Below, piece after piece: positions 28,473-51,771 of a stretch of DNA of 53,057 nt. The translations under genes were made by a program, and so were the position numbers. Numbering within the stretch: position 1 is the stretch's first letter; every line of letters starts with the position of its first letter. A model generated the notes under the pieces. That model saw only the letters and a list, made by a program, of their open reading frames with translations. It searched no databases and was not told the origin of the DNA. The DNA lies in assembly GCA_947482115.1 (NCBI GenBank), contig CANKII010000008.1:49182-102238 (forward strand), written 5' to 3'. The stretch is from Fibrobacterota bacterium (GTDB lineage: Bacteria > Fibrobacterota > Fibrobacteria > UBA11236).

Positions 28473-30221
28473 ATGTCGCCCAAGATCATGAAAACCGGAT
28501 TAGTGGCGGGAATGACAGCTCTGTTGAGCTTCTCATTGACCTTTTCCCAAACCTGCCAGGATCCACCTGCCACGGGCTATGCCCGTCAAACCCTGATTGC
28601 TGCGGGCGTGGCAAAGCAGCCCGTCGAAATGGCGGTGGTCAAGGATGGCCGCGTGTTCGTTGCGGAACGGGCTGGCATCATTCGCGTTTACACACCGTCC
28701 AACAGCCAGAATGCGGTAGCCGCCACCTTCAGTGTCTACCTGTATGTCACCACGGGCTCGCAGAACGACGTGGGTGGGATATTGGGTCTTGCCGTGAGCC
28801 CGAACTTCGCCACGGACAACTGGCTGTACGTCTATTATGCACCGCTTTCACTTTGGAATGGCGGGCCCGCAGATCACACGAGCGGGCGCCTCACTTACCG
28901 TCTTTCACGTTTCAAAGTGTTGACGGACAATACCCTGAACATGTCCAGCGAACAAATACTGTTGTCGGTGCCTTCCATCTGGGAAACCCACAATGGCGGC
29001 TCCATGCATTTCGGCAAGAACGGCGACCTTTACCTGTCCATAGGCGACAACGATTGCGCGGGCTGCAGCAACCAATATTCCCCCATGGATGAGCGCCCCG
29101 GTTACGAATTCTCCGACGATCAACGCAGCACCGCCAACACGAACAGTTTGCTCGGCAAAGTGCTGCGCATTCATCCCGTGCAGGATTCGATCAACGGACG
29201 TCTTTACACCATTCCTGCCGGCAATCTTTTTGCGGAAGGTAGGGACTCGACACGGCCTGAGATTTATACCATGGGACATCGCAACCCTTACCGTATCTTT
29301 CCCGATCCGATTACAGGCCGATTGTATATCGGTGAATTTGGCCCGGCGGCCACCGCCAGCACAACCCGCGGACCCGTGGGCGCAGACCAACTCAAGATCA
29401 CGGATTCCGCTGCATTTCTGGGATATCCTTATTTCCTGAAGGACAACCGCGCGTATTGCCATTGGGATTACGGAACGGGAGCTTGCAAGGCCATTCAAGG
29501 CCAGACCAGCATGAACTTCGATCCGGCCCGACCCGTCAACACCTCACCCAACAACACGGGCCTCCGCATCCTGCCTCCCGCCAAACCCGCAGTGGCGTGG
29601 GACAACGAAGCCACCGACAACACTTCTCCGAATCCCGTCAATACCGATCTGAGCGGCTGCGGCATGGGCGGCGGACCGGTTTATCATTATGATCCGCTGC
29701 TCAACTCATCCGTGAAATTCCCGCCTTACTTTGAAAACAAGTGGATTATTTATGCCATCTTCGGGAGCTGGCAACCCAAATTACTCACCATCCCTTCCGG
29801 ACCCGTCGCGCGTCTATCGCAAAGCGTGGCAATGCCGTGGACCACGACTCAAGTACCCAATTTTTCCAGTGGCGGCATTCAGGACATGGAATTTGGCGAC
29901 GGCGATGGAGCCCTTTATGTCCTCGATTATGGGGCGACTCAATACGCCAACAACAGCACCGCCGCGTTATATCGCGTGACCTATAGCGGCTGTCTTCCCA
30001 CCGCTTTGGTCGATGCATCGGGTAAAAAACTTTTCCCCACTGCTCCGGCATGGAGAATGCCCGGTCAATCTGTGATCATACCGAGTGGATCGAAACGCGT
30101 TGCAGCCTTCAATCTTTCCGGAACGAAGATTTGGGAGGAGACCGTACAGCCTCAAATCAAATCCGCAATCTTGCTGCCGACTTCGCTGGGTTCGGGTCCC
30201 CTACTGCTTCGCTTTTACTAA
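28473..30221 (+). CDS. secreted PQQ-type sugar dehydrogenase (six-bladed propeller)
   Basis: Soluble aldose dehydrogenase-like protein that oxidises sugars outside the cytoplasm with PQQ. A signal peptide spans residues 1-26. The propeller shows family segments: DGRVFVAERAGIIRVY near residue 55, GGILGLAVSPNF near residue 100, WETHNGGSMHFGKNGDLYLS near residue 170 (catalytic His), and MGHRNPYRIFPDP near residue 265. The last 75 residues (from CLPTALVDASGKK) look like a surface-sorting tail. AAGGAG precedes ATG 28473. The 3' end overlaps the convergent permease gene by 21 bases. It may feed electrons to the multiheme lipoprotein encoded at 33897-35207. Confidence 0.82.
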   Translation: MSPKIMKTGLVAGMTALLSFSLTFSQTCQDPPATGYARQTLIAAGVAKQPVEMAVVKDGRVFVAERAGIIRVYTPSNSQNAVAATFSVYLYVTTGSQNDVGGILGLAVSPNFATDNWLYVYYAPLSLWNGGPADHTSGRLTYRLSRFKVLTDNTLNMSSEQILLSVPSIWETHNGGSMHFGKNGDLYLSIGDNDCAGCSNQYSPMDERPGYEFSDDQRSTANTNSLLGKVLRIHPVQDSINGRLYTIPAGNLFAEGRDSTRPEIYTMGHRNPYRIFPDPITGRLYIGEFGPAATASTTRGPVGADQLKITDSAAFLGYPYFLKDNRAYCHWDYGTGACKAIQGQTSMNFDPARPVNTSPNNTGLRILPPAKPAVAWDNEATDNTSPNPVNTDLSGCGMGGGPVYHYDPLLNSSVKFPPYFENKWIIYAIFGSWQPKLLTIPSGPVARLSQSVAMPWTTTQVPNFSSGGIQDMEFGDGDGALYVLDYGATQYANNSTAALYRVTYSGCLPTALVDASGKKLFPTAPAWRMPGQSVIIPSGSKRVAAFNLSGTKIWEETVQPQIKSAILLPTSLGSGPLLLRFY

Positions 30222-31520
30222 GTCGTCCCTGAAGAAAAGGGCGAACAGGATGGCAACCACGCCCGCCATCAAGGCCGATGTGATCCAGAATGATTTCCAG
30301 GCCGACATCGCGGCCGACACCACCGCCGGATCCGCCGTCAGGCGTTCCACCGAGAACATCCGTCCGAGGGACTGGACAAAGGTGAGGCTTTCCTCCGAAC
30401 GCGCCGCCTTGAGGGTCGCATCGAGAGTCGAGTATTCCTTGCCCACTGCGCCGAACCTGCTAAAGGCCACTTGATAACCGATGTACATGCCGATGCCCTG
30501 GGTAAAAAACACCAGCATGCTCTGCGACTGGCCCTTGATATCCTTGGTCGAAACGCGATCGGTGTACATGAATCCGGTGACGAAGAAAAAGTCGTAGCAG
30601 ATGCCGTGTAGCAGGATGCCGAGGAACAACATCCAGACGACCTGATCCGGAGCACCCAAGGCAAACAGCACGTAGCGCAGAACCCAAGCCAGCATGCCAC
30701 CGAGGATCATGTATTTCACCCCCAGTTTACGCAGGAAAAAAGGTATCAGCAGCATGAATATGATTTCGGACATCTGGCCCAGCGACATTGTTGAGGCTGG
30801 GGCCAAAAAACCCGTGTTGCTGAGGAAGTTGGAGGTGAAGGCGTAGTAATAGGCCAATGGAATGCAGATCAGCGTGGAAGAGACAATGAAAACCAGGAAG
30901 GCAGGCTTCTTCAGCAGCGACAGAGCATCGACCATGAGCAGGGCCCGCACATTCACGGGTTTGTCGCGCGCAGGCGGAGGCGTATTCGGCAGGAAGAAAC
31001 AATAGACACCGAGCAGCAACGAGCAGATTCCCGCCAGCCAGAAGATGTGGAACTTCGCGCTCCAGCCGAGGAATCCGATGGCGAGTCCAGCGGCTATCCA
31101 GCCAATGGTTCCCCAGACCCGGATTTTCGGAAACTGATTCTGATCGGTGAGATTGGCGAAGGCGATGTTGTTTCCTAACGCCAACGTGGGCATATAACAG
31201 AGCATGTGACCTGTGAACAACCACACCAAGGTCTTGCCATCGTGCGCGGCCGCGAAGCCCGGAGCGAGACACATGAGGATGCCGCCTAACAACAGCAAGA
31301 CTCCCATCACCTTTTCCGAGGCGAAGAAGCGATCCGCCACGATACCCAGGAACAGCGGAGCGAAAATCGCAGCGATGGGAGCGGTTCCGTATGCTCCGCC
31401 GATAGCATCCACCAAGCCATTGGTACCCAGACATTGGCCCAAGGTGACAAACCAAGCGCCCCAGATGAAAAACTGGAGGAACATCATGACCGAAAGCTGT
31501 GTGCGGATTTTGGTGTTCAT
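30201..31520 (-). CDS. NupG-type MFS permease (nucleoside:H+ symporter family)
   Basis: Major facilitator of 439 residues with twelve hydrophobic segments, of the nucleoside:H+ symporter branch. The opening MNTKIRTQLSVMMFLQFFIWGAWF fits that branch; GYGTAPIAA-like and VADRFFASEKVMG cytosolic loop segments follow. In Bacteroidota and Verrucomicrobiota these permeases often sit beside DUF1080 and Gfo/Idh/MocA genes and probably carry sugars rather than nucleosides. Start ATG 31520 has GGAGG 11 bases upstream. It is last of a five-gene operon (37 bases after the NagB fusion) and overlaps the convergent dehydrogenase gene by 21 bases. Confidence 0.82.
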   Translation of the reverse strand: MNTKIRTQLSVMMFLQFFIWGAWFVTLGQCLGTNGLVDAIGGAYGTAPIAAIFAPLFLGIVADRFFASEKVMGVLLLLGGILMCLAPGFAAAHDGKTLVWLFTGHMLCYMPTLALGNNIAFANLTDQNQFPKIRVWGTIGWIAAGLAIGFLGWSAKFHIFWLAGICSLLLGVYCFFLPNTPPPARDKPVNVRALLMVDALSLLKKPAFLVFIVSSTLICIPLAYYYAFTSNFLSNTGFLAPASTMSLGQMSEIIFMLLIPFFLRKLGVKYMILGGMLAWVLRYVLFALGAPDQVVWMLFLGILLHGICYDFFFVTGFMYTDRVSTKDIKGQSQSMLVFFTQGIGMYIGYQVAFSRFGAVGKEYSTLDATLKAARSEESLTFVQSLGRMFSVERLTADPAVVSAAMSAWKSFWITSALMAGVVAILFALFFRDDLVKAKQ

Positions 31521-31557
31521 GTTCTGTGGATCCTCCGAGTGTTGGGTTAAAACTACT

Positions 31558-33873
31558 TCAGGACAATTCCCTTTTCGATTCGAGAAATCGCTTGAGCGGC
31601 GCGACCTCTTCTTCAAACTCCGCATAACTCATGTCTTTGAGATAAAGCGCTCCGTAAGCCCGGCGCATTTGGGGATGGGGGCTTTCATAAAAATAGGAGC
31701 GACCCAGAAGATCGATGAGTTGCTGTTGCTGTTCGACCCAGATTTTCTGTGCAAGACGGCTGAAAGTGCCGTCCAGTTCCGGACTGGGAAATGCCGCCGT
31801 GCGTTGACTGGCAAAGCAGGTGTCGAACATGTTGTGTAAAACGGCAAAGGAATTCAGGGACACCAGAATGACACTGTCCGCCTCTGCAAGATGAAACCGG
31901 GACCAGATGTTGCGATAACCGTAGATGCGCAAATCCTCCGCCCCGTGGATTTTCACATATTCCTCCAGTGCCCGGGCCACGGCGATCAGGCATTTAAAAT
32001 GCGTATCGGGACCGCTGCCTTCGGGATCCATCGCCAAGGTCACCACAGTGGGCCGAATGCGTTCCATTAAATTCAGAATGGGCCGCACATCGCGTTCAAA
32101 ATCCGGATCTTCCGGAAAAATGGCGCTGGTGTAGAACTGAAGTCGCAAATGATGCACATGATCCCGACCCAGTCCAAAATGCGCCCATGCAAGCTCGGCT
32201 TCCCATTCCCGCAGCCAGCCTTTTAACCGCTCCACAACTTCGGATTCCTTCCGACCCGGAGTCCATTTCTTCAGCAACTTCAGAATTTCTTCCAGAAAAA
32301 CTCCCACGGATTTTCCGGAGCCATCATTTGAGGCTTTGAGATAAGCCACAAGATGACGGTAGAGCCGGAAGGCCACGAAAAAAGCCTCGGCTTCCCGGTT
32401 CTGTGCTGCGATGGCGTTGAGGTATCCGTGGATTTCCCATTGAAAGGGTTCCCCCTCCCAATCCGGCGAAGACAAGAGTCCGGGATGGATTCTTCCCTCA
32501 TGCAAAAAGCCATCCAGTTCCAACAACCGCTGGAGCAAATAGGCATGCGTTACCGCCGTGAAACCACTGGTCATGTAACAGAAATGATTTTCGTTCCGTT
32601 CCGAACGCACCAGATGATGGATAAGCGGAAAGTAGGCCAGTTCAATGTCATCGTGGTGAGGCGCGGTATGCAAAAAACGCTGCCCATCCTTCAATGCCAG
32701 CCCTCTTTGGATCTTGGCGCGGACCGATTCCGTAGCCTCGCTCAAGAGTTCGGAGGAAGGTCGGCCGGACATTTTCTCCGCCCAATCCAACGCGCCATCC
32801 AGCACCGCCCGCTCCAAATCGCGTTTCGGTAAATCCAATCCGGCACGCACAGGCGGGAAACGCCGTGCTTCCAGACGGGAAGCCGCTCCCGCCGTCAAAT
32901 AAAAACGTCCATTGGAAAGGCCTTGCAATAAACTCGCGGGAGAATCGACGGCAGGGGGATTTTCGATGGCGGCAGCCACGATGGGAGCCTTGGTTTCACC
33001 CGCAGCCATGATGATCGCCGTAACCTCCGGATTACAAGCGATGGTTCCGAGACCGATGGTAATTACTGCCTTGCGACGCACCGCATCAATGCCTCCCAGA
33101 TCCACCGATGCTGCGGCCATGCTTTCATAATTGAGTTTGTCGAGCCGGGTCGTGGAGCGATGGCTGGAGCCCCGCATATTGAAGGCAACGTGGCCATCGG
33201 GGCCAATGCCTCCCAGGAAAAATCCAATCCCACCCCAGCCTCGAATGGTATCCTCATACTCTTCACAAAACCCGTCAAAGTGGCGGATGACTTTTTGCTG
33301 CGCCAACTCAAGCTCGTTTTCAGGCTGGCGCACTCTCAATCCGAGATCAATCACTCCCCCGGGAAAAATCGCTTCGACATCCTTGCGATGCGACAGGGCT
33401 TTCAATTTTTCCGGCAATTCAAAGGTATTGATGCACAACGCTTTCTTCGGATCGAGCCCCAAACCGTCGAAATAAAATTTGCGGATGAAATGCCCGAAGG
33501 AACGTTCATGGGATGGATCGATGGGGAAAAATTCATCCAGTTGCACAAACCGCAGATGTTGCATTTCGGGCTTGCGATGCATGTGCGGCAGATGCGCCAG
33601 AAGCCCGGACTTCGCCTCCCGTTCCCAGTTTTTCAAATAGTACCGGGCCCATTTGATGAAGTACTCCGGAGTCCGTCCGGTGGGCAGGGCTATCACACCG
33701 TCGGGATGTGCGGACACCCATTCGAAAAATCGCAAAGCCACCAATTGCCCCAGCACCACGTAGTTTGGAACCACCATGGTTTTCGGAAACACCGTGGCGA
33801 CTTCCGCCAAACCCTTGGCGGCAAAAAGCTTTTCGACCCCACCGTCTTCCACGACTTTGTTCAACAATTCCAT
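31558..33873 (-). CDS. NagB-LmbE fusion protein (glucosamine-6-phosphate deaminase-like plus PIG-L-like)
   Basis: Two-domain cytoplasmic protein of 771 residues. Residues about 40-340 form a NagB-like sugar-phosphate deaminase/isomerase domain, with ALPTGRTPE near residue 62, LDEFFPID near residue 112 and LGGIGPDGHVAFN near residue 220. Residues about 400-680 resemble LmbE/PIG-L zinc deacetylases, with HTAPHHDDIELAYFP near residue 402. Fused NagB-LmbE proteins are known in Bacteroidota. The combination suggests N-acetylated amino sugars (deacetylation, then deamination) but could act on other keto or amino sugars in this operon. It lies 23 bases after the cytochrome gene. Confidence 0.82.
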   Translation of the reverse strand: MELLNKVVEDGGVEKLFAAKGLAEVATVFPKTMVVPNYVVLGQLVALRFFEWVSAHPDGVIALPTGRTPEYFIKWARYYLKNWEREAKSGLLAHLPHMHRKPEMQHLRFVQLDEFFPIDPSHERSFGHFIRKFYFDGLGLDPKKALCINTFELPEKLKALSHRKDVEAIFPGGVIDLGLRVRQPENELELAQQKVIRHFDGFCEEYEDTIRGWGGIGFFLGGIGPDGHVAFNMRGSSHRSTTRLDKLNYESMAAASVDLGGIDAVRRKAVITIGLGTIACNPEVTAIIMAAGETKAPIVAAAIENPPAVDSPASLLQGLSNGRFYLTAGAASRLEARRFPPVRAGLDLPKRDLERAVLDGALDWAEKMSGRPSSELLSEATESVRAKIQRGLALKDGQRFLHTAPHHDDIELAYFPLIHHLVRSERNENHFCYMTSGFTAVTHAYLLQRLLELDGFLHEGRIHPGLLSSPDWEGEPFQWEIHGYLNAIAAQNREAEAFFVAFRLYRHLVAYLKASNDGSGKSVGVFLEEILKLLKKWTPGRKESEVVERLKGWLREWEAELAWAHFGLGRDHVHHLRLQFYTSAIFPEDPDFERDVRPILNLMERIRPTVVTLAMDPEGSGPDTHFKCLIAVARALEEYVKIHGAEDLRIYGYRNIWSRFHLAEADSVILVSLNSFAVLHNMFDTCFASQRTAAFPSPELDGTFSRLAQKIWVEQQQQLIDLLGRSYFYESPHPQMRRAYGALYLKDMSYAEFEEEVAPLKRFLESKRELS

Positions 33874-33896
33874 GATTTAAACATAACACGTTGCAT

Positions 33897-35207
33897 TTAT
33901 TGTCGTTTCCCCTTTTGTGAAGAATTATTCAGCGGAAAATTTTGTTCCCACAACACATATCGGGAGGAAAGTGACGCTTCATGGGCCTGTAGAATTTTCT
34001 TCTCTCCAGCTGGAACTGTTGGCTTTAATCCCGGTGTATCCATCATGCGGCGAAAATATCTGCGGTATCCCTCATCCGGCCAAACCTCCACTCTTGCCGT
34101 TACTTTGACGGCCATGGGATTAATCGAGCGGTGATAAGGAAGATCAAAGGATTGCCCGGGGAGAAGACGGGTGTCAAAAAATTCATGATCGACTTCCTCC
34201 GTGACCCAGCGGGCGATGGTCCCTTCCACCCGTGTACCGGACAGAACAGAATCCTTCGCATCCCTTTGTTCCCAAATCAAAACAATGTGGGGGATATTAT
34301 AAGTCGGCAGACGATGTCCCGCACCCACATTGGTCAACTTAAGAGTAGCCTGTGCGAAATCCCCTGATGCTGTCAATGCAAATCCTGCTTCAATGGACAC
34401 GGCAGAGCGAACCATTTCCGGATCGTGAATGCCTTTCCAAAGATGACGCCCTTCCGGCATGTGGCAACTTTGACAGGTTTTTCCCTCGGCGGCAAAATCC
34501 GTGCGCCTCCATTCCTCCGCCGTTTCCAGCAGCATTTTTCCATGCACACCACCACCGGGTTTGAAGTCATGGCACTCCGCACAAAAAGCCGGGTTCAAAT
34601 ATTCCGGTTTAGTGATGAAACCACCATGAGGCCCCTTGGGATTGGACTTGATGCCGAGATCGGGTCCATACCGAACGTGATTGCGTACATGACACGCGGC
34701 ACAAACCAATCCTTCCTCCCGCAATCCTTCATGATAATCCGGATTGGGTTTTCCCTTTTGCAAATAGGGAATTTGTTCGGCCAGCGGAGCATGGCATCTT
34801 TGACAGCTTATGGAGAGCACGGGAGCGTCCAGCTCCATGTCCAGCAATTGCCCGAGCACTCCGGGTCCCATGGCCTTGTGATGAAAGCTTTTTTTCCAGT
34901 CCTGATACTGTTGTATATGACATGTTCCGCAGGCTTCAGGACGAATGTCCTTTTCAATTTCAGGCCAATTCTTGGGGGCTGGACCTTGAGCCGGGATATA
35001 CCATGCAAAATGCCGGTGTAACCACTCCGATTTTTCCAGCGGAGGAACCTTGGGAGCTATCGAATCCAGTGGAGTGGCATGAAAAGTTTCCGTCGTATCC
35101 GGAACGGAAACCTTGCGGATCGTCTGAGGATCGTGTTTGCATCCCGCTGCTAGAATCCACAGCGCGAAAAACCCGGTATATTTACGGAACTGCGATCTTG
35201 CGGACAA
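33897..35207 (-). CDS. five-heme c-type cytochrome lipoprotein
   Basis: Electron-carrying lipoprotein of 436 residues. The lipobox LAAGC puts Cys23 at the membrane surface. CxxCH heme sites are CGTCH (93), CQRCH (135), CAACH (169), CAECH (209) and CQSCH (245), a cytochrome c554-like layout. Free His residues such as HHKAMG may supply distal ligands. Residues 280-436 form a beta-rich domain with TLKLTNVGAGHRLPTYN, as in other multiheme proteins. The likely start is TTG 35207, giving a 26-bp overlap with the upstream DUF1080 gene, so translation is coupled. It probably accepts electrons from a sugar or glycoside dehydrogenase; the partner is not proven. Confidence 0.85.
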   Translation of the reverse strand: MSARSQFRKYTGFFALWILAAGCKHDPQTIRKVSVPDTTETFHATPLDSIAPKVPPLEKSEWLHRHFAWYIPAQGPAPKNWPEIEKDIRPEACGTCHIQQYQDWKKSFHHKAMGPGVLGQLLDMELDAPVLSISCQRCHAPLAEQIPYLQKGKPNPDYHEGLREEGLVCAACHVRNHVRYGPDLGIKSNPKGPHGGFITKPEYLNPAFCAECHDFKPGGGVHGKMLLETAEEWRRTDFAAEGKTCQSCHMPEGRHLWKGIHDPEMVRSAVSIEAGFALTASGDFAQATLKLTNVGAGHRLPTYNIPHIVLIWEQRDAKDSVLSGTRVEGTIARWVTEEVDHEFFDTRLLPGQSFDLPYHRSINPMAVKVTARVEVWPDEGYRRYFRRMMDTPGLKPTVPAGEKKILQAHEASLSSRYVLWEQNFPLNNSSQKGKRQ

Positions 35208-36237
35208 GCGAGGCAGAATTGGTTTGGAGCTTTATCAAATAAATGGCCGGAGCGGCCGACACGGGTATGCGGTATTCCTTCACCGTCGGATTCAAAACGG
35301 AATAGAGCACCTGACCACGCAAGGAAACCAGTTCCAGTTGTCGCACACCGGTCTGTAATATCGGTAAAATCAATTCAGAGCCAACTCTCTTCTCTGCTCC
35401 AACATAATGCGAAGCATCGGCCGAATGATCTGGAGCAATGGAAGTGCCGCCAGCGCAAGAGCCGTTGTCTTGGTATACCGCGGGCTGCTTTGTTAAACCC
35501 GGCGAAAACTTTCCATCGTACTTGGCGGAAGTGGAATCGCCACAACCCTCAAGAATAGCGATGTTCTTGAAGCGCACATCCATGGGAAGCTGGCCCGCAT
35601 GGATTTGCAGGCCCAACCTTCCGGGGTTCACGATAATCGGGGAATTGTCGTAACGCCAGGCAGCCTTGGCTCCCAAGGAGATTTCGCCCGCGTCGATTTC
35701 GCCCACAGCTTGGTATCCGTTCACGTTCACGTAAACGTAGGGCTTTTTCACCGTCAATACCACGTCCTGGTACGTGGAGCTGGGAACCCTGGCAATACGG
35801 TCGCTATAGGACTGGGAGTGCTGGACTACCCAACCCGGAGAGGGATGATCATACAGAGAGCCCACTTCAGATTGCTTGCCACTGCTGAGAAATTTGGCTT
35901 CGACCTGCACTCCGGCAACCAGCTCGGCGGTGGTGTTCTCCACGGCGCGGAAGAAAAAACCGCTGCAGCCCGCGCGCAGGCGGTACGAATACTTGATGGT
36001 AAACTGGTCGAAATCGGTCTTGTCTGAGAACACCATGGTATAGGGAGTCGCCACGGTTGTCGACGCACCCACGATGGCGCTATCCACCTGATCGATGGTC
36101 CAGTAAGTGCTGGCGCCCGCCACATGCCAACCGGCAAAGGTGGTGCCGTTGAAAAGAGGCTTCCAATTCGTCGTCGCCAGCACCAAGGCTACGGACAGGC
36201 CGAGCAACAGCAAGGATTTCGTGAGCAGGTTTCGCAT
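35182..36237 (-). CDS. secreted DUF1080 (3-keto-disaccharide hydrolase family) protein with sorting tail
   Basis: Concanavalin-like fold protein of 351 residues of the DUF1080 family, whose studied members cleave 3-keto-glycosides. A signal peptide is followed by the family opening NWKPLFNGTTFAGWHV (residues 23-40). Core strands are YSYRLRAGCSGFFFRAVEN near residue 85 and GRLGLQIHAGQLPMDVRFKNIAI near residue 215. The final 65 residues (QLELVSLRGQVLYS...IYLIKLQTNSASLVRKIAV) look like a T9SS type A sorting domain. GAGGAG lies between the porin stop and ATG 36237. It is second in the leftward operon; the cytochrome start overlaps its end. Confidence 0.85.
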   Translation of the reverse strand: MRNLLTKSLLLLGLSVALVLATTNWKPLFNGTTFAGWHVAGASTYWTIDQVDSAIVGASTTVATPYTMVFSDKTDFDQFTIKYSYRLRAGCSGFFFRAVENTTAELVAGVQVEAKFLSSGKQSEVGSLYDHPSPGWVVQHSQSYSDRIARVPSSTYQDVVLTVKKPYVYVNVNGYQAVGEIDAGEISLGAKAAWRYDNSPIIVNPGRLGLQIHAGQLPMDVRFKNIAILEGCGDSTSAKYDGKFSPGLTKQPAVYQDNGSCAGGTSIAPDHSADASHYVGAEKRVGSELILPILQTGVRQLELVSLRGQVLYSVLNPTVKEYRIPVSAAPAIYLIKLQTNSASLVRKIAVP

Positions 36238-36248
36238 GAAGACTCCTC

Positions 36249-37805
36249 TTAAATGTTGACCATGAGGCGCAGCATGTAATACCACGCGTCTTTTGTGGTG
36301 GCGGCCTCGGTGAATGAAGGACGGAAGGATCCGGTCAGGGGACGGTAGTGATCCGTTCCCGCCTGGAAAGCCAGATTCCAAATCCCGAAGGATTTTTGCG
36401 CCGTCACCGTCCATTTGAGATCATCCTCGTGGTGGTGGGCACCGTACTGATCGGAGCCGCCGGGATAGGCCGGATCCTCAAGCAGGGGAATCTCGGGCGC
36501 CGCCGCATTGGGGGATTTCGGCTGCGGGATTCTGTAAAACGCCATCATGTAATCAGAATTGATGTGGGGATTCTTGAAATATTCCATCTCGACGGTGAGA
36601 TAGTCGAGCTGTTTGAAGGTGGGCAAATAAAAGCCCGCCATCATGGGAGTCCTCTCGGAAATCTTGGTGTAATAGATTGGATAATTCTTCGTGCCCAGCA
36701 CCGCCATTTCGCCGTAAAGAACCAAGTCGGACTGACCGAGAATGTCGGCCCAACCCATCAAGGGTTTGGGATCAAACGAAGCGCGGGCCACAAGCATAAC
36801 TGCCTTGGTGTCGACGTATTGGATGCTGGAGTGCTTGTTCACGCCCGTCGCGACGGCGATAGAGTCTTTGACAATCGGGTTCGCCACCAACGCCACCAGA
36901 TCGCGATCCGAACCCGCCCAATAAATTCCAGGCGCCAAAGCCGTGTCCACCACGCTTCCCCCGCTCACGAGGTTGCGCGAATATTCCGTGAAGTTGGAAT
37001 CCGCGACTCTGCTGCGCCGAAGGTATTCGGAAAGTCTTGCCTGATCGGCCGCCGTCCAATGAAACCATCCCGTGGCCTGTGATTCAGGGCGGCTCTTCTT
37101 GGGATCGATTTGCAAAAACCGGCTGAGCATCACGCCTCCTCCGATTTGAAACATGTTTCCAAATTGCAGGCTGGTGATGTTTGAAAAAGAGACGTCGTGC
37201 AAGGGAGTGCGCTCATTGGCCATGGTGATTAAAAAATCATTCTTCACCATTCCATCGAGAAAGTTTCCTTTGAACGCCACACCCCATATTCCGGATCCGG
37301 CATTGTCGATGGCGCCCCAGTCTCCTGTTCTAACCGTGGTGGGATAAGCCTCAGATCGGAACAGGTATTCACCGAAGTTCTTTGCGTAAGGATTGTATTT
37401 GTAACCCTGCTGACCCACGCTGATTTGCATCCACGGTTTTTTCAGATCGCCCACGGAATAAGTACCCACTGCCTGCGAAATAGCCACACCGCCGGTGCGA
37501 TAACTGGTCCAACCCTGTCCCGCGACATTGCTTTCGGGAAATGGATACCAGAACGTGCCCGCAATTCCCAAACTGAAATGGAGGCGGTCCCCGGACGTGG
37601 CTTCCTGAACCATCCAAAGGCTGGTGGTGGGCAAGGTCACGGTAGGATTAAAGCTGTCACCCTGTTGCAACGAATCATCGATGTTGAACATCTGGCCGAA
37701 ATACAATGAAGCGCCCGACTTCAATGGAAGGAGGGTGAGATGGGTGTCATCCGCCCGGACGAACACCCCTAAAAACACAAGTCCGCAGATGAAAAAAAAC
37801 TTCAT
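36249..37805 (-). CDS. porin-like outer-membrane protein, family member A
   Basis: Unnamed beta-barrel protein of 518 residues with signal peptide (MKFFFICGLVFLGVFVRA). It is a clear relative of the three tandem proteins at 44238-48767. Shared landmarks are YKYNPYAKNFGEYLFRSEAYP near residue 130, KNYPIYYTKISERTPMMAGF near residue 375, LDYLTVEMEYFKNPHIN, and a C-terminal strand ending WYYMLRLMVNI (outer-membrane beta-signal type). First gene of the leftward operon, with only 11 bases to the DUF1080 gene. Role inferred as a passage for oxidised sugars. AAGGAA precedes ATG 37805. Confidence 0.75.
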   Translation of the reverse strand: MKFFFICGLVFLGVFVRADDTHLTLLPLKSGASLYFGQMFNIDDSLQQGDSFNPTVTLPTTSLWMVQEATSGDRLHFSLGIAGTFWYPFPESNVAGQGWTSYRTGGVAISQAVGTYSVGDLKKPWMQISVGQQGYKYNPYAKNFGEYLFRSEAYPTTVRTGDWGAIDNAGSGIWGVAFKGNFLDGMVKNDFLITMANERTPLHDVSFSNITSLQFGNMFQIGGGVMLSRFLQIDPKKSRPESQATGWFHWTAADQARLSEYLRRSRVADSNFTEYSRNLVSGGSVVDTALAPGIYWAGSDRDLVALVANPIVKDSIAVATGVNKHSSIQYVDTKAVMLVARASFDPKPLMGWADILGQSDLVLYGEMAVLGTKNYPIYYTKISERTPMMAGFYLPTFKQLDYLTVEMEYFKNPHINSDYMMAFYRIPQPKSPNAAAPEIPLLEDPAYPGGSDQYGAHHHEDDLKWTVTAQKSFGIWNLAFQAGTDHYRPLTGSFRPSFTEAATTKDAWYYMLRLMVNI

Positions 37806-37832
37806 GCTTTCCTTCAATTTATAGCGCCTCAC

Positions 37833-37864
37833 GGTTTTAACCCGACAAAAATCCGGTTTAAACC
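37833..37864. promoter_or_regulatory. paired palindromic boxes between divergent promoters
   Basis: GGTTTTAACC (37833-37842, one-base asymmetry) and GGTTTAAACC (37855-37864, perfect palindrome) lie 22 bp apart centre to centre, about two helical turns, in the 115-bp gap between the leftward porin operon and the Gfo/Idh/MocA gene. This spacing suits a regulator that binds both. TATAAA (nearer to the porin start) may be a -10 box of the leftward operon. Confidence 0.4.
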
Positions 37865-37920
37865 TAATTTCTTCCCGTGCCATATATCATGGGAACACAT
37901 TCCAAATCAAGAAATAACCG

Positions 37921-40991: not shown

Positions 40992-41178
40992 GAAAACCTC
41001 CATCCCTCATTTACCGCCATTTCGTGGAATTCTCCACTGAAATGTGACTTATGCAAAAAATCCGAAAAAGAACTTCCAAGTCATAAAAGGGTAAAATACT
41101 CTGTGACTATTCTTTTCACATTCGGAAATAAACTTCAAGCGATACATTAAACGCACCTCAACGAAAAAGGATGGCACT

Positions 41179-43095
41179 GTGAAAAATTCCCTGATTTGGA
41201 ATGTTTTCTTGATTTCAATGGCCGTCAGCACGCTTTATGCGTCAAAACCGACTGTTACAAATCCGCTGTTCACACAGGCAGCAATCACCTTGCCCTCTCT
41301 CGGCGTGGGTACCTGTTCTGGAAATGGAGCCGGATGCAACGGAGTCATGGGAATTGACTGGCTTTCGGACGGACGCATGGTGGTTGTGAGCACGGACTTT
41401 GAAGGTGGTGGTGAAATCCCCACTGCACCTCGACCAGGCAGCAAAGTGATGCTGGTTTCCGGCCTGCTGAACGGCGGCCCCATCACAACCAAGGAAATCG
41501 CCACCAATTTCAAGATGCCTACCGGCGTCAGCGTGGTGAATGACCGAATTTATGTGGCGGACAAGGATTCCTTTTACGTGATTCCCGACAACACAGGTGC
41601 GAATCCCGGAACCAACCGCCAGCGCATGTTTCAAGCACCCACGCCGTTAACCACTGGCAGCAACCCGCTGAACTTCAAGTTTAATACAGGTAACGCAAAC
41701 ACTTCCTTCTGGCACCATTGGGTTTTTACACCGACCTACTATCACGGAAAATTCTACTCGAACTATTCCGGCGATATCCAGAATGGCGGCCCTTCGGATG
41801 TGCCGCCCGCCAGTTATTTTGGCGGGGCTGTCCTGGCTTTTGATACCAATACCACGGTACTGGACACCAATGTGAACCGCGCAGCCGGTGGCCTCCGTTC
41901 TCCCAATGGAAACAATCTCGGTCTCAACGGGGAAATCTGGTCTGCGGATAACCAGGGCTCCCAACTGCCCATGTGCTATCTCGCCTTGGTGAAACCTTTT
42001 ACCAACCAATACTTTGGCCACCGTCAAGGTAACGGCCAAACTCCGAGTTGGGGTCAGGCATGGTATGCCGCCGGAAGACTTCAATACGATCCGCCCGTGG
42101 CTATCATGGATTTCGCCGCCAACGGCTGGCGTTCCCTGGCGCAACCCCTGTACCTCACAAGTGGACCTTACGCTGGCGATGTGATTGTAGGAGATGTGAA
42201 TTCAACCGGTATCGCCCGTGTCGCTATTGACTCGGTAGCCGACACCACCGGTGCTCCCAAAATCCAATGCGCTGCTTTCTGGTTCAGCAATAACACGGGA
42301 AATGACGCCATCAACCGCCTGTCCATGGGACCGGACGGCAGCATTTACGCCGGCGTTTTCCGCAGCATCGGCAACTGGCCTTCGGGAGCTTCGACGAACA
42401 TCATGTACAAGTACACGCCAAGAACAAACACCAGCCTGTTCGAAATCAGAAAGATTCGTTCGCTGGCGGATGGCTTCGAACTTTACCTGTCCCAGCCCGC
42501 CAATCCGGCAACAGTCATCCCTGCGAATTTCACCGTCCAACAGAAAAACTGGGTGCGTCAGGCGACTTATGGCACGGGCGCGGGCAGCTACGCCAACCGG
42601 ACGGTGAACTCTGCGACGCTGTCGAACGACAGCATGCGCATTCACTTGACAGTGCCCGGAATCCAGCGCATCAACCAGTCGAGGCGCGGAGATAGTGTGA
42701 CCCACTGGGTCACACATTTCCTTGTCAACAATCTGGCATCTTCCACCAGCGCAGCCAACTTCACCAACGAAGCATGGTATGCACAAAACTGGGTTTCTGC
42801 ACGCACCTGGAATGCGGCAGCGCCAACCCCCATCGTTTCAATGCGGCACAAAATCTCCACTCTGGACAGCCACATTTGGTATACGGTTGCAGGTCCAGGC
42901 TTGCTGCGGGTAAATATGGATATCACGGGATCCCATGAGGCTACTTTACGTGATCTTCAGGGCCGCATTCTCTCGAGACAAACGGCAACGGGAGCGGGTC
43001 ATGTTGAATTTTCCTCGCCGACCCGCACGCAATCCATTTATCTGCTGGAAGTGAAAAGCGGATCCGACTCGTACGCCCAAGTCGTGACTTTCTAA
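41179..43095 (+). CDS. secreted beta-propeller protein with sorting tail
   Basis: Secreted protein of 638 residues with a signal peptide (MKNSLIWNVFLISMAVSTLYAS). The first 420 residues repeat propeller-type strands (GIDWLSDGRMVVVSTDF, GVSVVNDRIYVADKDSFYVI, RLSMGPDGSIYAGVFR), weakly like sorbosone/glucose dehydrogenase propellers, although a clear PQQ site was not identified. Residues 430-540 form a beta domain (FELYLSQPANPATVIPANFT). The last 75 residues (ATLRDLQGRILSRQ...IYLLEVKSG) are a T9SS type A-like tail. First gene of the rightward five-gene operon; DUF1080 follows after 38 bases. Enzymatic activity is not certain. Confidence 0.72.
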   Translation: MKNSLIWNVFLISMAVSTLYASKPTVTNPLFTQAAITLPSLGVGTCSGNGAGCNGVMGIDWLSDGRMVVVSTDFEGGGEIPTAPRPGSKVMLVSGLLNGGPITTKEIATNFKMPTGVSVVNDRIYVADKDSFYVIPDNTGANPGTNRQRMFQAPTPLTTGSNPLNFKFNTGNANTSFWHHWVFTPTYYHGKFYSNYSGDIQNGGPSDVPPASYFGGAVLAFDTNTTVLDTNVNRAAGGLRSPNGNNLGLNGEIWSADNQGSQLPMCYLALVKPFTNQYFGHRQGNGQTPSWGQAWYAAGRLQYDPPVAIMDFAANGWRSLAQPLYLTSGPYAGDVIVGDVNSTGIARVAIDSVADTTGAPKIQCAAFWFSNNTGNDAINRLSMGPDGSIYAGVFRSIGNWPSGASTNIMYKYTPRTNTSLFEIRKIRSLADGFELYLSQPANPATVIPANFTVQQKNWVRQATYGTGAGSYANRTVNSATLSNDSMRIHLTVPGIQRINQSRRGDSVTHWVTHFLVNNLASSTSAANFTNEAWYAQNWVSARTWNAAAPTPIVSMRHKISTLDSHIWYTVAGPGLLRVNMDITGSHEATLRDLQGRILSRQTATGAGHVEFSSPTRTQSIYLLEVKSGSDSYAQVVTF

Positions 43096-43133
43096 CTAAC
43101 ATTGTCGTGAATAAAGACCCAAAGGAGAATGTG

Positions 43134-44225
43134 ATGAAAATTGGATTCCATAAATCGACCCTTCTCGCATTGGTAGTGGCGAGTGCTGCCTGTGCAGCTC
43201 TCAAGGACTCCATCAACACATTAACCCGCTACGAACAAGCACAAGGATTCAAGTTGCTGTTCGATTCGACAGCAAACAGCTACCGGAACAATTTTGTGAA
43301 TTACGCGCAAAACGGCACCACCACCACGACTTTGAACGCCGGGTGGACGATGGATACCACCTTCACGGATCCAGACCGCCCCGGTGTTTTCTTCCGTTCC
43401 ATCAAGACAACGGCGGCTATCACGGACAACCGAACCAAAAGCATGTTCAAGGACATCGATTTGCGCATGGAGTACCGCAACAACGGCAACGAGGGTATCG
43501 TTTACCGCTTCGACTTGTCTCAGGGTAACAACTGGGGTACCGGCATTGAATTCGGCATCGACGACAATCTCAATCAAAGAGGCTGGATTACGGCCGGTGC
43601 CGCCTATGAAGTGTACGCACCGATTCCCCAGCCCTATCAGGCTTTCAATACCGGCAAATGGAACACCTTACGTCTCGTGATTAAGGCGGACAGTGTGGAA
43701 CACTGGTTAAACGGTATCCGGGTCGTAGCCTTCAAATATTGGTCGCAAAGCTTTCGTGATTCAGTTGCCAAATCGAAATGGGCCACTTCTGCGAGATTCT
43801 GCCAGACGGCCAACAACAACAAGACCTACATTCCCCTCGGATACTGGGGTTTTCAGGCGGACCATGGCGGAGCTTGGCAAATCCGTAAGCTCCGCATTCT
43901 TCACGATTCCGATGGAACCCCGAGTCGGGTAAAATTCGGTCCGGTCGACACCACAACGGGCATATCGGGTATCTTGAATGAAAAACGCCGCCAGACCGGG
44001 TACAACATTGAACGGGTATCCCATGGATTGCGTGTTTCTGCAAGTGAAGGATTTCTGCGCTCCGTGGACATGCTCGACTTGGGTGGAAGACTGATGAAAC
44101 ATGTCAGACCTGCCGCCGGAATCCCTCAGTGGATCCTCGAAACAAATGGCATGCGCAAAGGGATGTATATCCTGCGAATAGAAACGTCGTCCGGAATATA
44201 TCAGGGAAAAGCACTGGTTCAATAA
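43134..44225 (+). CDS. secreted DUF1080-like protein with sorting tail, second copy
   Basis: Second DUF1080 family protein, 363 residues. ATG 43134 has AAGGAG six bases upstream; an upstream in-frame start adds nine residues. A signal peptide ends near ASAACA. The family core is GFKLLFDSTANSYRNNFVNY near residue 35, KDIDLRMEYRNNGNEGIVYRF near residue 105 and YWGFQADHGGAWQIRKLRIL near residue 245. The sorting tail is VDMLDLGGRLMKHVRPAAG to the end (IETSSGIYQGKALVQ). It is not a close duplicate of the 35182-36237 protein: shared layout, low visible identity, so the two probably act on different keto-sugars. Confidence 0.8.
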   Translation: MKIGFHKSTLLALVVASAACAALKDSINTLTRYEQAQGFKLLFDSTANSYRNNFVNYAQNGTTTTTLNAGWTMDTTFTDPDRPGVFFRSIKTTAAITDNRTKSMFKDIDLRMEYRNNGNEGIVYRFDLSQGNNWGTGIEFGIDDNLNQRGWITAGAAYEVYAPIPQPYQAFNTGKWNTLRLVIKADSVEHWLNGIRVVAFKYWSQSFRDSVAKSKWATSARFCQTANNNKTYIPLGYWGFQADHGGAWQIRKLRILHDSDGTPSRVKFGPVDTTTGISGILNEKRRQTGYNIERVSHGLRVSASEGFLRSVDMLDLGGRLMKHVRPAAGIPQWILETNGMRKGMYILRIETSSGIYQGKALVQ

Positions 44226-44237
44226 CTCCTGTATACA

Positions 44238-45749
44238 GTGAGTAATCGATACACCCATCAAGTCTTTGCGGCCATCTTTATGATGGCCGCAGCAGCATCC
44301 TCCGTTCACGCGGAGGATGCCGTGGAATACAAGCCCCTTTCCATAGGCGCCATGTCTGAATTCGGCGTCATTCAGGGAGGGCGTTTCGGCGAGAATTCCA
44401 AGCCGTTTTACGATGAATGGGTGGATCATTTCGGTGCCTCCCTCACCCAGAGCGTTTCTGTAAATGGAAAATGGTTTCTCAACGTGGGTATTGGTGGAAT
44501 TTTCGAATTCCAAAAACAGGAAAAGATTGGCGCGCTCTGGGGCGGAACACAATATCGAAGTTTCTTCATCGGTCCGACCACCGCGGATGTCGAGTACGAG
44601 GCATTCAACGACAACGCCAAAAGCTTGTACGTCGGGATGGGGATATTTCCGTATAAATACAACCCCGATGCCTCCAATCTGGGGGAATATCTTTTTCGCA
44701 CCGGCCCCTACCCCACCTACATCATGACGGGAGGGTATTCCTTCGTCAACAACTCCGGCGCGTCATTGCAAGGATTGAAATCGCGCTTCACCCTGGGGAA
44801 ATTTTCAGCAGACGTTTTCCTGACCACGGAAACCGTGATGCCGCCTCTGTATGACCTGTCGCTCGCGGGAGTGATTAAATACTCTCTGGCTGACGGCCTT
44901 CTGGATCTGGGCGCGGGTGTCAATCTCAAACGACTTGTGCCGCTCCGTCCTTCCAAAACCACAGTGGAAACACCCGACAACGCCTACTTCACGGGTCCGG
45001 ACGGCGGGACATACGCCGGAAACCAATCGTACTACCGGAATCAAAAGGAGTTCTACGGAAACAAGCTTTCAACGTCCGGCGCAACGGCGGGAGACACGGC
45101 GAAATACAATCAAGCCAAAGGCCTGCTTGACTCCGTGACAGCCTGGGTAAGTCCCGGTTCCACGTTCCATCCAGTCTACAACTATTACACACAGGCGGGC
45201 ATCGTGGTCGATGCTACAATATCTCTCGATCCCAAAAAATGGCTCCCGACCTCGGTGAAAGATCGGATGGGCTCAAATGATCTTCGGATTTACGCCGAGG
45301 CAGCCCTGCTCGGAGTGAAGAATTACCCGATTTTTTATGAGAAGCAGCAGGATCGCATGCCCATCATGGTCGGGATCAATCTTCCCGGTTTCAGATTTAT
45401 TGATCTGATCTCCGTGCAATTTGAATATTACAACTCGCCAAATGTGAACTCCTTCTTTGAAAGCGTGAGCACCAACGGTGCCACGCCCCAATTCGTGAAC
45501 GGTTCGCAGAACCTGCTCTCCAAAAACGAATACGGAGACCAGCTGTCCAAGGACAACTACAGCTGGTCCGTCCTGATAAAAAAAGAATTGACCCGGGGAC
45601 TGACCTTCAGTTTTCAGGCGGCAAGGGATCACGCCCGGCTGGTCAGTGACGCGACATGGGCGGGGCCGTTCCTCGATCCCAACGAGGTGTTTTACACCAC
45701 CAACCGCAACAACTGGTACTGGATGACCCAGTTCAGCTTCGGCATTTGA
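44238..45749 (+). CDS. porin-like outer-membrane protein, family member B
   Basis: Tandem copy one of three, 503 residues, start GTG 44238, 12 bases after the DUF1080 stop. Signal peptide about residues 1-25 (ending SSVHA). Family landmarks: RYEW-type YDEWVDHFGASL near residue 58, KYNPDASNLGEYLFRTGPYP near residue 135, FLTTETVMPPLYDLSLAG, VNLKRLVPLRPSKTTVETPD near residue 230, KNYPIFYEKQQDRMPIMVGI near residue 355, and terminal WYWMTQFSFGI. A variable, polar segment at about 245-315 resembles a long outer loop and differs between copies. Function inferred as uptake pore. Confidence 0.75.
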   Translation: MSNRYTHQVFAAIFMMAAAASSVHAEDAVEYKPLSIGAMSEFGVIQGGRFGENSKPFYDEWVDHFGASLTQSVSVNGKWFLNVGIGGIFEFQKQEKIGALWGGTQYRSFFIGPTTADVEYEAFNDNAKSLYVGMGIFPYKYNPDASNLGEYLFRTGPYPTYIMTGGYSFVNNSGASLQGLKSRFTLGKFSADVFLTTETVMPPLYDLSLAGVIKYSLADGLLDLGAGVNLKRLVPLRPSKTTVETPDNAYFTGPDGGTYAGNQSYYRNQKEFYGNKLSTSGATAGDTAKYNQAKGLLDSVTAWVSPGSTFHPVYNYYTQAGIVVDATISLDPKKWLPTSVKDRMGSNDLRIYAEAALLGVKNYPIFYEKQQDRMPIMVGINLPGFRFIDLISVQFEYYNSPNVNSFFESVSTNGATPQFVNGSQNLLSKNEYGDQLSKDNYSWSVLIKKELTRGLTFSFQAARDHARLVSDATWAGPFLDPNEVFYTTNRNNWYWMTQFSFGI

Positions 45750-45756
45750 GGATGCG

Positions 45757-47271
45757 ATGAGGAATCTGAATTCCGGAAACTTTTGGAAAGCCGCAGTCCT
45801 CGCTTCGGTCTTTTTGACCGCGTCCGCTTTTGCAGCTGCCGCGAAAGAAGACCGCGATGTCGTCTACAAGCCCCTCAAATTCGGCGGGGTTCAGGAATTC
45901 GGTTCCATCGTCGAAGGGGTGGTTGCGAATGACGCGGGAATCGTGTCCAGCGCCAATCCAAGACTCCGCTACGAATGGGTGGATCACTTCGGAACATTTC
46001 TGAGCGAGGAAGTGATTGTCGATAAACGTTTAAATCTGCAGGTGGGCCTGGGAGGAGTCTTCGAGTTTCCGAAGCCGGAGCATGTGATTCCCAAATATGG
46101 CAGCAGCATGTACAAGATGTTCTTTGTCGGTCCTTCGGTGGCCAAAGCCGTATACACCTTTGGAAATCTCGAAAAGCCGGTATTCACCCTGGGTGGAGGA
46201 CTTTTCCCGTACAAATACAACACGGACGCGGTCGACCTTGGTGAATACCTGTTCCGTACCACGCCTTACCCCGCAACGATTTTCACAGGCGGTCTTCTTT
46301 TTGTGAATGACAATGCGGCTTATCTGCAGGGACTGCATGCCCGGCTTCAACTTGGCGATTTGACTGTGGACGGACTACTCGCAACAGAAACATCACTCCC
46401 ACCGCTTTACGACTGGTCCCTCGGCATAGTGGCCGACTATCAAATTGCAAATGGGCTGATGGATGTAGGTGCGGGTGTCAATTTCAAAAGGTTGATTCAA
46501 GTCAAACCCAGCAAGACCCAGCGTGAAATCCAGCAAAACGCCTATTTCATCCGCAATGGAAAAAACTATTACGGGGATGTCGGTTACTACAAGGCGCAAA
46601 AAGACTTCTATGCCGCAACCGGGGACTCTGTCCGGGCTGCGTCTTACCAATCCATCGTGGACTCCGTGAATTTCTGGATGAGCTCTTCAAATCCCACACA
46701 CATCCAGCAATCGGAATTGAACTATTATACTCCGGCCGGAGTCATTCTCATGGCTCGGGCCTCTTTGGATCTCAAGAAAATTATCAGCATTAACTTGGGT
46801 GATGCACCTTTCAAGATCTTCACCGAGGCTGCGATTCTGGGCTGGAAAGATTACCCCATTTTCTATGAGGACAAATGGAAACGAGCTCCTGTCATGATGG
46901 GAATTCATCTGCCCACGTTTGGCCTGCTGGACCAACTCACCCTGCAATTTGAATACTTCAACTCTCCATGGTCCAACAACACCTACAACCTTGGGGCTCA
47001 AAACGTTGCCGTTCCCTATCTCCCGGCCGGGGCGGAGCCCTTGTTTTCCAAAAACACCTATAATGATGTCACCCAACATGACAATAACGCATGGGTGGTG
47101 CTGCTCCGACGCCAACTTTATCCCCACCTGAACCTTAGCGCCCAATTCGCCCGCGATCACATGCGAACAGTCGGGACAAACTGGTTTTATGGCGGCCGTC
47201 TTGAACCCAGTGAAGTGCTTTACCGCAACTCCAACTGGTACTGGATGGCGCAGTTGGGATGGTCGCTATGA
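45757..47271 (+). CDS. porin-like outer-membrane protein, family member C
   Basis: Tandem copy two, 504 residues, ATG 45757 seven bases after the preceding stop. Signal peptide to about residue 28 (SAFAAAA). It shares EWVDHFGTFLSEEV, LGGGLFPYKYNTDAVDLGEY near residue 140, VNFKRLIQVKPSKTQREIQ near residue 240, KDYPIFYEDKWKRAPVMMGI near residue 365 and terminal WYWMAQLGWSL with its neighbours. The mid-protein loop (NAYFIRNGKNYYGDVGYYKA) is the same region that varies in the other copies. The stop TGA is shared as ATGA with copy D, so the two are coupled. Confidence 0.75.
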   Translation: MRNLNSGNFWKAAVLASVFLTASAFAAAAKEDRDVVYKPLKFGGVQEFGSIVEGVVANDAGIVSSANPRLRYEWVDHFGTFLSEEVIVDKRLNLQVGLGGVFEFPKPEHVIPKYGSSMYKMFFVGPSVAKAVYTFGNLEKPVFTLGGGLFPYKYNTDAVDLGEYLFRTTPYPATIFTGGLLFVNDNAAYLQGLHARLQLGDLTVDGLLATETSLPPLYDWSLGIVADYQIANGLMDVGAGVNFKRLIQVKPSKTQREIQQNAYFIRNGKNYYGDVGYYKAQKDFYAATGDSVRAASYQSIVDSVNFWMSSSNPTHIQQSELNYYTPAGVILMARASLDLKKIISINLGDAPFKIFTEAAILGWKDYPIFYEDKWKRAPVMMGIHLPTFGLLDQLTLQFEYFNSPWSNNTYNLGAQNVAVPYLPAGAEPLFSKNTYNDVTQHDNNAWVVLLRRQLYPHLNLSAQFARDHMRTVGTNWFYGGRLEPSEVLYRNSNWYWMAQLGWSL

Positions 47272-48767
47272 GATTTTTCATGAAGCAAGGGCTGCTTTTC
47301 CTGCTGGGAATAACAACGGCTGGCCTGCATGCGGAAGACACAAAAGTGACTGAGAAGCCTCTGAATGTCGGAGCTTTTCAGGAATTTGGTGCCGTATACG
47401 ATGGTCTTTATTCGGCGGGAGACGTTCCAGGTGTCATTATCGGGACGGAATGGGTGGATCATTTTGGTGCCTTTATCAGCAAGGAAGCTGTGATTAATGA
47501 CCGGCTTCACTTGAGCGGAGGCATTGGCGGGGTCTTTCAATTTCGCAAGCCGGAAACCGTGGGTGCGGGATTTGATTTCCACCAACGCAAGGCTTTTTTC
47601 ATCGGACCCACGCGGACCGAGGCTGTCTACTATTTCGGAGATCCGCAAAAACCGTGGCTGAAACTGGGTGCCGGCATGTTTCCCTACAAATACAACCCGG
47701 AGGCATCGAACCTCGGTGAATATCTGTTCCGTGCGCGGGCCTACCCCACCACCACCACCACGGGCGGCTATGTGCTGGCAAACAGTTCCGGAGCGACGCT
47801 ACAGGGAATCAAAGCCAATTTTCAAAACGGCCCCATGAAATTGGATGTGTTGTTTACCACTGAAACGGAACAGGCTCCGTTCTACGATTTTTCGCTGGCT
47901 CTCGTCGGATCTTATTCTGTTGCCAATGGCCTTCTGGATCTGGGAGCAGGTGTTAATTTCAGCCATCTCGTACCGGTAAAGCCCTCTCGTACCACCAACC
48001 CCGTTCGAGAAAACAGCTATATCACCGATCCGGCCACGGGCAAGAAATACGTCGGCAATTCCACTTATTATACCAATGCAGCAGAGTACTACGATGCCAA
48101 GGGTACGGCCCAAGACAGCGCAAAAGCGGCTCAATATAACCTTGAAGCAGCCACCGCTGATGGGCTTTATAATCTTCCAGACAGTCTTCGCCCAGCCGTT
48201 CACTACTTTACCACATCGGCAGCCCTACTTATGGCACGAGCCACTTTGGATCCAAAAAAGCTTCTTGCTTTCCCAGCTTTGGGTGCCGAGGATCTCAAGG
48301 TTTATTTCGAGGTGAACGTACTTGGTCTCAAAAATTATCCTGTGTATTACGAGAAAATCATGGAAAGAATGCCTTTTATGATGGGCGTCAATATCCCCTG
48401 TTTTCATGTGTTGGATCTTCTTGCTGTACAAGCCGAGTACTTCAATTCGCCCTGGCTCAACAACACTTTTTCCATCGCATCGGGGAACAATGAACGGGTA
48501 AATAATACCCCCTACTTCCCCATTGGCAACGACAACGTGCTCTCGCAGAAATCCTATAACGATCAAGCGGGAAAAGACAATTGGAAATGGTCGGTGTTGG
48601 CTAAGAAGACGCTTCAGAAACGCCTTACAATATCCGCACAGGTCGCCCGGGATCATCTCCGTCTGCCGAGTTCGAAATACTACTACGGCCCCCAGTTTGA
48701 ACCCAATGAAGTTACTGCTTTCAAGGATTCCTGGTACTGGGTCACCCAAATTTCCTGGGGTATCTAA
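47268..48767 (+). CDS. porin-like outer-membrane protein, family member D
   Basis: Tandem copy three, 499 residues. The ATG at 47268 overlaps the TGA of copy C (ATGA), so it is the coupled start; an upstream GTG frame is possible. Signal peptide starts MRFFMKQGLLFLLGI. Shared landmarks include EWVDHFGAFISKEAV, FPYKYNPEASNLGEYLFRAR, FTTETEQAPFYDFSLALVG, VNFSHLVPVKPSRTTNPVRE, KNYPVYYEKIMERMPFMMGV and terminal WYWVTQISWGI. The loop after residue 245 is again variable (YITDPATGKKYVGNSTYYTN). The gene is last in the rightward operon and is followed by a strong terminator. Confidence 0.75.
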   Translation: MRFFMKQGLLFLLGITTAGLHAEDTKVTEKPLNVGAFQEFGAVYDGLYSAGDVPGVIIGTEWVDHFGAFISKEAVINDRLHLSGGIGGVFQFRKPETVGAGFDFHQRKAFFIGPTRTEAVYYFGDPQKPWLKLGAGMFPYKYNPEASNLGEYLFRARAYPTTTTTGGYVLANSSGATLQGIKANFQNGPMKLDVLFTTETEQAPFYDFSLALVGSYSVANGLLDLGAGVNFSHLVPVKPSRTTNPVRENSYITDPATGKKYVGNSTYYTNAAEYYDAKGTAQDSAKAAQYNLEAATADGLYNLPDSLRPAVHYFTTSAALLMARATLDPKKLLAFPALGAEDLKVYFEVNVLGLKNYPVYYEKIMERMPFMMGVNIPCFHVLDLLAVQAEYFNSPWLNNTFSIASGNNERVNNTPYFPIGNDNVLSQKSYNDQAGKDNWKWSVLAKKTLQKRLTISAQVARDHLRLPSSKYYYGPQFEPNEVTAFKDSWYWVTQISWGI

Positions 48768-51373: not shown

Positions 51374-51516
51374 TACTCGCTCCTGTTAAAAAAGATTTGC
51401 AGCCAGAAGATGGCCCGGAATTTCCCTTTGAAATATATCGATCTCTTTATCCTCCTGACGAGGAAAAATGGACTATTGATGTATCCGTTTTGGTTCAGAA
51501 ATGTTACAAATGTAAA

Positions 51517-51529
51517 GTGGTAGTACCAC
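51517..51529. promoter_or_regulatory. palindrome GTGGTAGTACCAC, possible operator
   Basis: Six-base arms around a single central base, located about 145 bases upstream of the DUF2341 gene start. No copy was noticed elsewhere. The evidence is symmetry alone. Confidence 0.25.
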
Positions 51530-51718
51530 CGCAATAAGATTCGTTCCAAAACAAAGGCCGCCCGGTAGGGGCGCATCCTCTTTTGGCAATACCATCAAAT
51601 ATTATCGCATGGCTGCGAAGGAAGCGCCCGGAACACAACTGGCGGATTTCGCATTAAGCCGTGCTGAGGAGTTTTCCTCATGGATGGATGCTTCAAATGA
51701 AAAACGTCCCTGATTAGC

Positions 51719-51756: not shown

Positions 51757-51771
51757 TATCAATTTTCCAGA

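Follow-up and report, generated by a model that had tools for sequence, protein, structure and literature searches.

The window, a 53,057-nucleotide stretch that forms the end of its contig (bases 49182-102238), comes from a 2.7-Mb, 99% complete genome (G000) of the Fibrobacterota that lies outside the large family f3, which we take to be Fibrobacter's own. Two operons lie in its second half (Table 1). On the minus strand, the left operon runs from a porin (PorinL) through a DUF1080 protein (DUF1080_L), a five-heme lipoprotein (CytC5) and a NagB-LmbE fusion to a NupG-type permease; its intergenic gaps measure only −26 to +37 bp, which makes it plausible that these genes form a single operon. 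On the plus strand, the right operon encodes a propeller protein, a second DUF1080 protein and then the porins R1, R2 and R3. Profile searches and a count of CxxCH motifs recovered, in place, every gene that an earlier sequence-only reading of this DNA had named. That reading had also set a Gfo/Idh/MocA oxidoreductase between the two operons. The gene does lie there, divergent from PorinL, but a DUF2341/LamG gene also intervenes between it and the right operon. Elsewhere in the window, positions 2583-4085 encode a secreted glucuronoyl-esterase-like protein (PF22244, 110 bits), a marker of lignocellulose degradation, and positions 48845-53016 hold two adjacent DUF2341/LamG genes whose C-terminal tails are nearly identical. 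The second of these reaches to 41 bases from where the contig stops, and the assembly probably broke at this repeat.

Table 1. Genes of the two operons and their neighbours, in window positions.
Feature	Positions	Strand	Evidence
Secreted GSDH-type (glucose/sorbosone dehydrogenase) propeller, candidate PQQ sugar dehydrogenase	28473-30221	+	PF07995, 105.8 bits
NupG-type MFS permease, inner membrane	30201-31520	-	PF03825, 310 bits
NagB-LmbE fusion, predicted cytoplasmic amino-sugar-type enzyme	31558-33873	-	PRK02122, 185.6 bits, 1e-54, below cut-off
Pentaheme cytochrome c lipoprotein (CytC5), c552 type	33897-35207	-	five CxxCH
Secreted DUF1080 (3keto-disac_hyd) protein with type IX-like tail (DUF1080_L)	35182-36237	-	PF06439, 69.6 bits; Por_Secre_tail, 19.2 bits, below cut-off
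Left porin (PorinL)	36249-37805	-	no Pfam match; AlphaFold2 barrel, low confidence
Gfo/Idh/MocA oxidoreductase without signal peptide, cytoplasmic	37921-38994	+	PF01408, 96.8 bits
Secreted protein with DUF2341, LamG and He_PIG domains; may bind glycans, uncertain member	38958-41003	-	PF13385, PF10102, PF05345
Secreted DUF7133/TIGR02604-type propeller, first in right module	41179-43095	+	PF23500, 21.6 bits, below cut-off
Secreted DUF1080 protein, right module	43107-44225	+	PF06439, 77.7 bits
Porin R1	44238-45749	+	same family as PorinL
Porin R2	45757-47271	+	same family as PorinL
Porin R3	47259-48767	+	same family as PorinL

What do the two operons have in common? Their four porins belong, as had been claimed, to one family of about 500 residues: R1, R2 and R3 are 44-46% identical to one another, and the left and right porins share 28% identity. 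The porins of both operons lack a significant Pfam match. An AlphaFold2 model from nine sequences is a low-confidence barrel (pLDDT 55, pTM 0.56) whose best Foldseek matches are porins of the OmpF/OmpC/OmpK type, at a TM of about 0.55 of the target for what is a weak model; because the model is too weak, we abandoned it as a guide to pore type. The window's genome carries about 22 copies of the family in 11 clusters. With 1-kb margins these clusters make up 2.1% of the genome, and of its 13 DUF1080 genes, 5 have a porin no more than 1 kb away (binomial P about 4e-6). As a descriptive count, all 11 clusters adjoin a gene for DUF1080, ThuA, a GSDH/DUF7133-type propeller or Gfo. Further porin-DUF1080 neighbours, at least 32 of them, occur in nine of the ten relatives that, together with G000, make up our comparison set of 11 genomes of the order. 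A SusD homologue (PF07980) was found in none of these 11 genomes, and the open-access literature yielded no description of a Fibrobacterota porin. It is likely that this porin family lies at the centre of about eleven paralogous, SusCD-free sugar-utilisation loci, two of them in the window, and would supply their outer-membrane entry.

Across the phylum, the porin family was found in 30 of 151 Fibrobacterota genomes, which rules out its confinement to one order; there was none among the listed members of f3. A constant association with DUF1080 is likewise ruled out, since distant families pair the porin with di-heme proteins. In the distant-family loci L169, L170, L171, L173, L174, L177, L179 and L181, the porin belongs to a cluster that recurs and that also encodes a secreted CxxCH protein of roughly 920 residues and a propeller-MauG/CCP-like di-heme protein. 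The roughly 920-residue protein of L174 carries a hydrazine-synthase-alpha domain (PF18582, 3e-18), and the same cluster encodes a RidA-like protein as well as ResB and CcmF/CcsA-type maturation proteins. In family f9 (L172:2198-12650 and L176:8263-18483), an MFS sugar-type transporter adjoins the porin, with genes for a ThuA protein and for an aldo/keto reductase bearing a Tat signal no more than about 8 kb away.

The left module (30201-38994), in which we count the Gfo oxidoreductase together with the left operon, is a real unit. PorinL, DUF1080 and CytC5 are contiguous in five genomes of two genera (G000, G002, G005, G006 and G008), and their order is constant, whereas NagB-LmbE/NupG, Gfo and GSDH vary in position or strand. 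The objection that the set might not co-occur outside this contig fails, as a search for DUF1080, the porin and a CxxCH lipoprotein found them together, with Gfo, in four further genomes of its family, from two genera. Gfo lies beside the module or within about 12 kb of it. NagB-LmbE accompanies the module in three of the four further genomes, as does NupG; both are co-directional with it in G000 and divergent in G006 and G008, and NagB-LmbE is divergent from it in G005. Of the 11 genomes, the six that have CytC5 are exactly those with a Gfo orthologue (identity of 64% or more), and five genomes have neither. Relatives of NagB-LmbE are found only in G000, G005, G006 and G008, that is, in four of the six CytC5 genomes, and are absent from G002; linked orthologues or homologues of NupG occur in G002, G006 and G008. 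Maximum-likelihood trees place the left-module porins in one clade (100/99), next to which the G010 porin branches, and the left-module DUF1080 copies in one clade (100/100) with the G010 DUF1080 close by; for the left module the two trees agree. The G010 pair lies beside a second DUF1080, a secreted two-CxxCH protein, a GSDH and the Gfo orthologue. GSDH is found in the left locus (G000, G002) or directly beside Gfo (G008, G010), and because of its linkage to the module or Gfo in G010 and G008 we consider it a likely member of the left module.

Several neighbours may bear on substrate and regulation. In G008 an ORF, GSDH and Gfo are consecutive; the ORF (L153:8300-9784), upstream of the other two, encodes 495 residues, and its start looks alginate-lyase-like by eye, a possible clue to the substrate. 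In G005 the left module comes with an AraC-type regulator, and in G008 with one recognised by sequence similarity. A second NagB-LmbE fusion lies beside genes that appear, by eye, to encode a peptide-type ABC transporter in G006 (L165:9217-12000) and G005 (L166:8851-12135), a hint of amino-sugar/peptide (muropeptide) substrates.

What is the role of the pentaheme cytochrome? Across 21 CytC5 homologues the ten heme cysteines, the five heme histidines and exactly five other histidines are invariant. As these histidines fit five bis-histidine hemes, CytC5 is probably an electron carrier and not a catalyst, and its presence implies that some redox step takes place outside the cytoplasm. The AlphaFold2 model of CytC5 (pLDDT 77, pTM 0.81) has as its best Foldseek match the pentaheme c552 5ze8 (E 1e-11), and with five c-type hemes and a matching fold the protein is assigned to the pentaheme c552 type. 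It resembles 5ze8, the c552 of Thermochromatium tepidum, in heme number, in overall fold and, weakly, in sequence; it differs in that identity over the structural alignment is 18% and in being a lipoprotein encoded in a sugar locus. A scan of 84,980 species returned 56 loci with CytC5 homologues. CytC5 was rejected as the mark of a widespread sugar cassette: outside Fibrobacterota its loci have no adjacent porin, DUF1080, GSDH, ThuA or NagB-LmbE, and only two have Gfo, at a distance. Electron transfer is not general to the porin loci either, because no multiheme protein is encoded near 10 of the 11 porin clusters of the window's genome; one of the ten has a two-CxxCH gene a few genes away.

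Both PF06439 proteins of the window score above cut-off. Phmmer matches the right DUF1080 to PDB chains that include the 3-keto-disaccharide hydrolase-like 8rr2, 8tda and 8v31, and the left one is weakly like solved DUF1080 structures. The sequence-only reading had supposed that cleavage takes place at the cell surface. The window's genome has SprA, a type IX translocon gene that scores above cut-off, and the tails of both DUF1080 proteins look like type IX sorting domains, at TIGR04183 scores of 19.2 bits (left) and 17.5 bits that fall below the cut-off of 23. Given SprA and these type IX-like tails, a surface location by way of type IX secretion is plausible. None of the open-access papers found to name DUF1080 or PF06439 appears to treat Fibrobacterota.

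Which enzyme could produce a 3-keto-glycoside here? GMC dehydrogenases, the type to which LacA belongs, were sought and gave no PF05199 match, and all six Gfo/Idh proteins in the window's genome lack a signal peptide, so that none is of the secreted kind. Since extracytoplasmic glycoside 3-dehydrogenases of these known types were not found, the propellers come into question: judged by their sequences, GSDH and the DUF7133-type proteins could be the oxidant and are the best candidates for a keto-sugar step in the locus. GSDH contains the GHRNP motif and a motif histidine, which are presumably PQQ-contact residues; it scores 65 bits against TIGR03606, below cut-off, and its best PDB match is the hedgehog-interacting protein. 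The right-module propeller is weakly recognised by Pfam. We rejected its assignment as a clear GSDH relative, since the profile comparison aligned only C-terminal tails, and kept it as DUF7133-like on the strength of TIGR02604 matches in three of six family members.

Do the two operons make up one pathway, as the sequence-only reading held from their mirror-image arrangement? In G000 and G002 they stand next to each other, which speaks for a single pathway. The right module (41179-48767) is itself well kept, with the order DUF1080-R1-R2-R3 found in G002, G005, G006, G007 and G008, but in genus g2 it lies on contigs other than those of the left module, and G007 has a right module and no CytC5. 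In G002 the two modules face each other tail to tail, on either side of GSDH, and a DUF2341/LamG gene adjoins the right module there too. The divergent layout, though present in the window, is thus not a conserved feature, and the separate occurrence of the halves largely refutes the one-pathway reading, which we regard as very improbable.

On a different account, PorinL and CytC5 would serve extracellular electron transfer as a porin-cytochrome conduit, and the sugar genes would do no more than feed it. The cytochrome lies close to the porin in five genomes, CytC5 has weak profile similarity to MtrC/MtrF domains, and in distant families members of the porin family occur together with di-heme proteins. 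Against a conduit, the five hemes reside in one protein only, the locus encodes no periplasmic MtrA-like partner, most paralogues of the porin lack a heme partner, and the fold of CytC5 matches c552 and not MtrC; we consider the idea improbable. It may instead be that DUF1080 acts as an ordinary glycosidase or binder and not on keto-sugars. One studied DUF1080 protein, THTE_1561, is a plain polysaccharide hydrolase (cited in PMC9007349), and the missing 3-dehydrogenases of known type and the scarcity of multiheme proteins beside the porin clusters point the same way. However, the porins repeatedly have ThuA and propellers of the GSDH and DUF7133 types as neighbours, and a bystander would hardly follow Gfo, PorinL and DUF1080_L as closely as CytC5 does.

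We propose that the window holds two paralogous, porin-centred, SusCD-independent loci, and that in the left one a surface DUF1080, uptake through PorinL and removal of electrons by CytC5, likely from GSDH, work together; for this proposal as a whole we see about an even chance. From gene content, conservation and co-occurrence we infer the following course. The type IX-secreted left DUF1080 would cleave or bind a glycoside at the cell surface, and PorinL would pass the released sugar or oligosaccharide across the outer membrane. The NupG-type permease would then import the sugar across the inner membrane, and the cytoplasmic Gfo/Idh and NagB-LmbE proteins would process it; NagB-LmbE hints that the substrate may be an amino sugar. 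CytC5 would carry off the electrons of a sugar oxidation outside the cytoplasm, for which the GSDH-type propeller dehydrogenase is the most likely enzyme. The right module would be a parallel locus for a different substrate. A bolder version, in which a type IX-secreted PQQ-type propeller at the surface oxidises glycosides to keto-glycosides, DUF1080 cleaves these products, CytC5 takes the electrons and the porin family replaces SusCD, seems to us rather doubtful. Were it true, a propeller dehydrogenase would be a third way to begin a 3-keto-glycoside route, besides GMC and secreted Gfo/Idh enzymes.

How does the locus compare with known systems? The Bacteroides 3-keto-glycoside pathway BT2156-BT2160, reportedly described by Nasseri and colleagues in Nature in 2024, also groups DUF1080 with Gfo/Idh/MocA. 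In contrast to that pathway, the present locus adds a dedicated porin, a pentaheme lipoprotein, NagB-LmbE and NupG, and its DUF1080 is probably at the surface via type IX secretion; moreover, its Gfo is cytoplasmic, whereas BT2158 is a periplasmic Gfo/Idh (PMC11300592). In the LacABC systems of Caulobacter and Pedobacter, lactose is oxidised outside the cytoplasm and DUF1080 is proposed to cleave the keto-sugar (PMC9007349). Our proposal shares with them extracytoplasmic oxidation, DUF1080 cleavage and a downstream transporter and reductase, but the locus has a pentaheme c552-type protein, a GSDH/DUF7133 propeller as candidate oxidant and no GMC-type LacA that we could find. In function, the SusCD loci of Bacteroidota also come close; they resemble the porin loci in being repeated, paralogous sets of an outer-membrane channel with surface glycan proteins; they differ in that SusD is missing from the 11 genomes and in that the channel here is a porin-like family of roughly 500 residues without a Pfam model. 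Because defining features of BT2156-BT2160, LacABC and SusCD were looked for and not found, we do not class the locus with any of the three. Its parts are known families, the porin excepted, and together they give the impression of a home-grown system that captures and oxidises sugars in place of SusC/SusD. In the open-access literature, SusCD-free sugar uptake in Fibrobacterota other than Fibrobacter appears to be undescribed, and the locus yields a set of genes open to testing, made up of a porin family without a name, the partners that recur with it and a rare heme carrier whose occurrence follows the left module.
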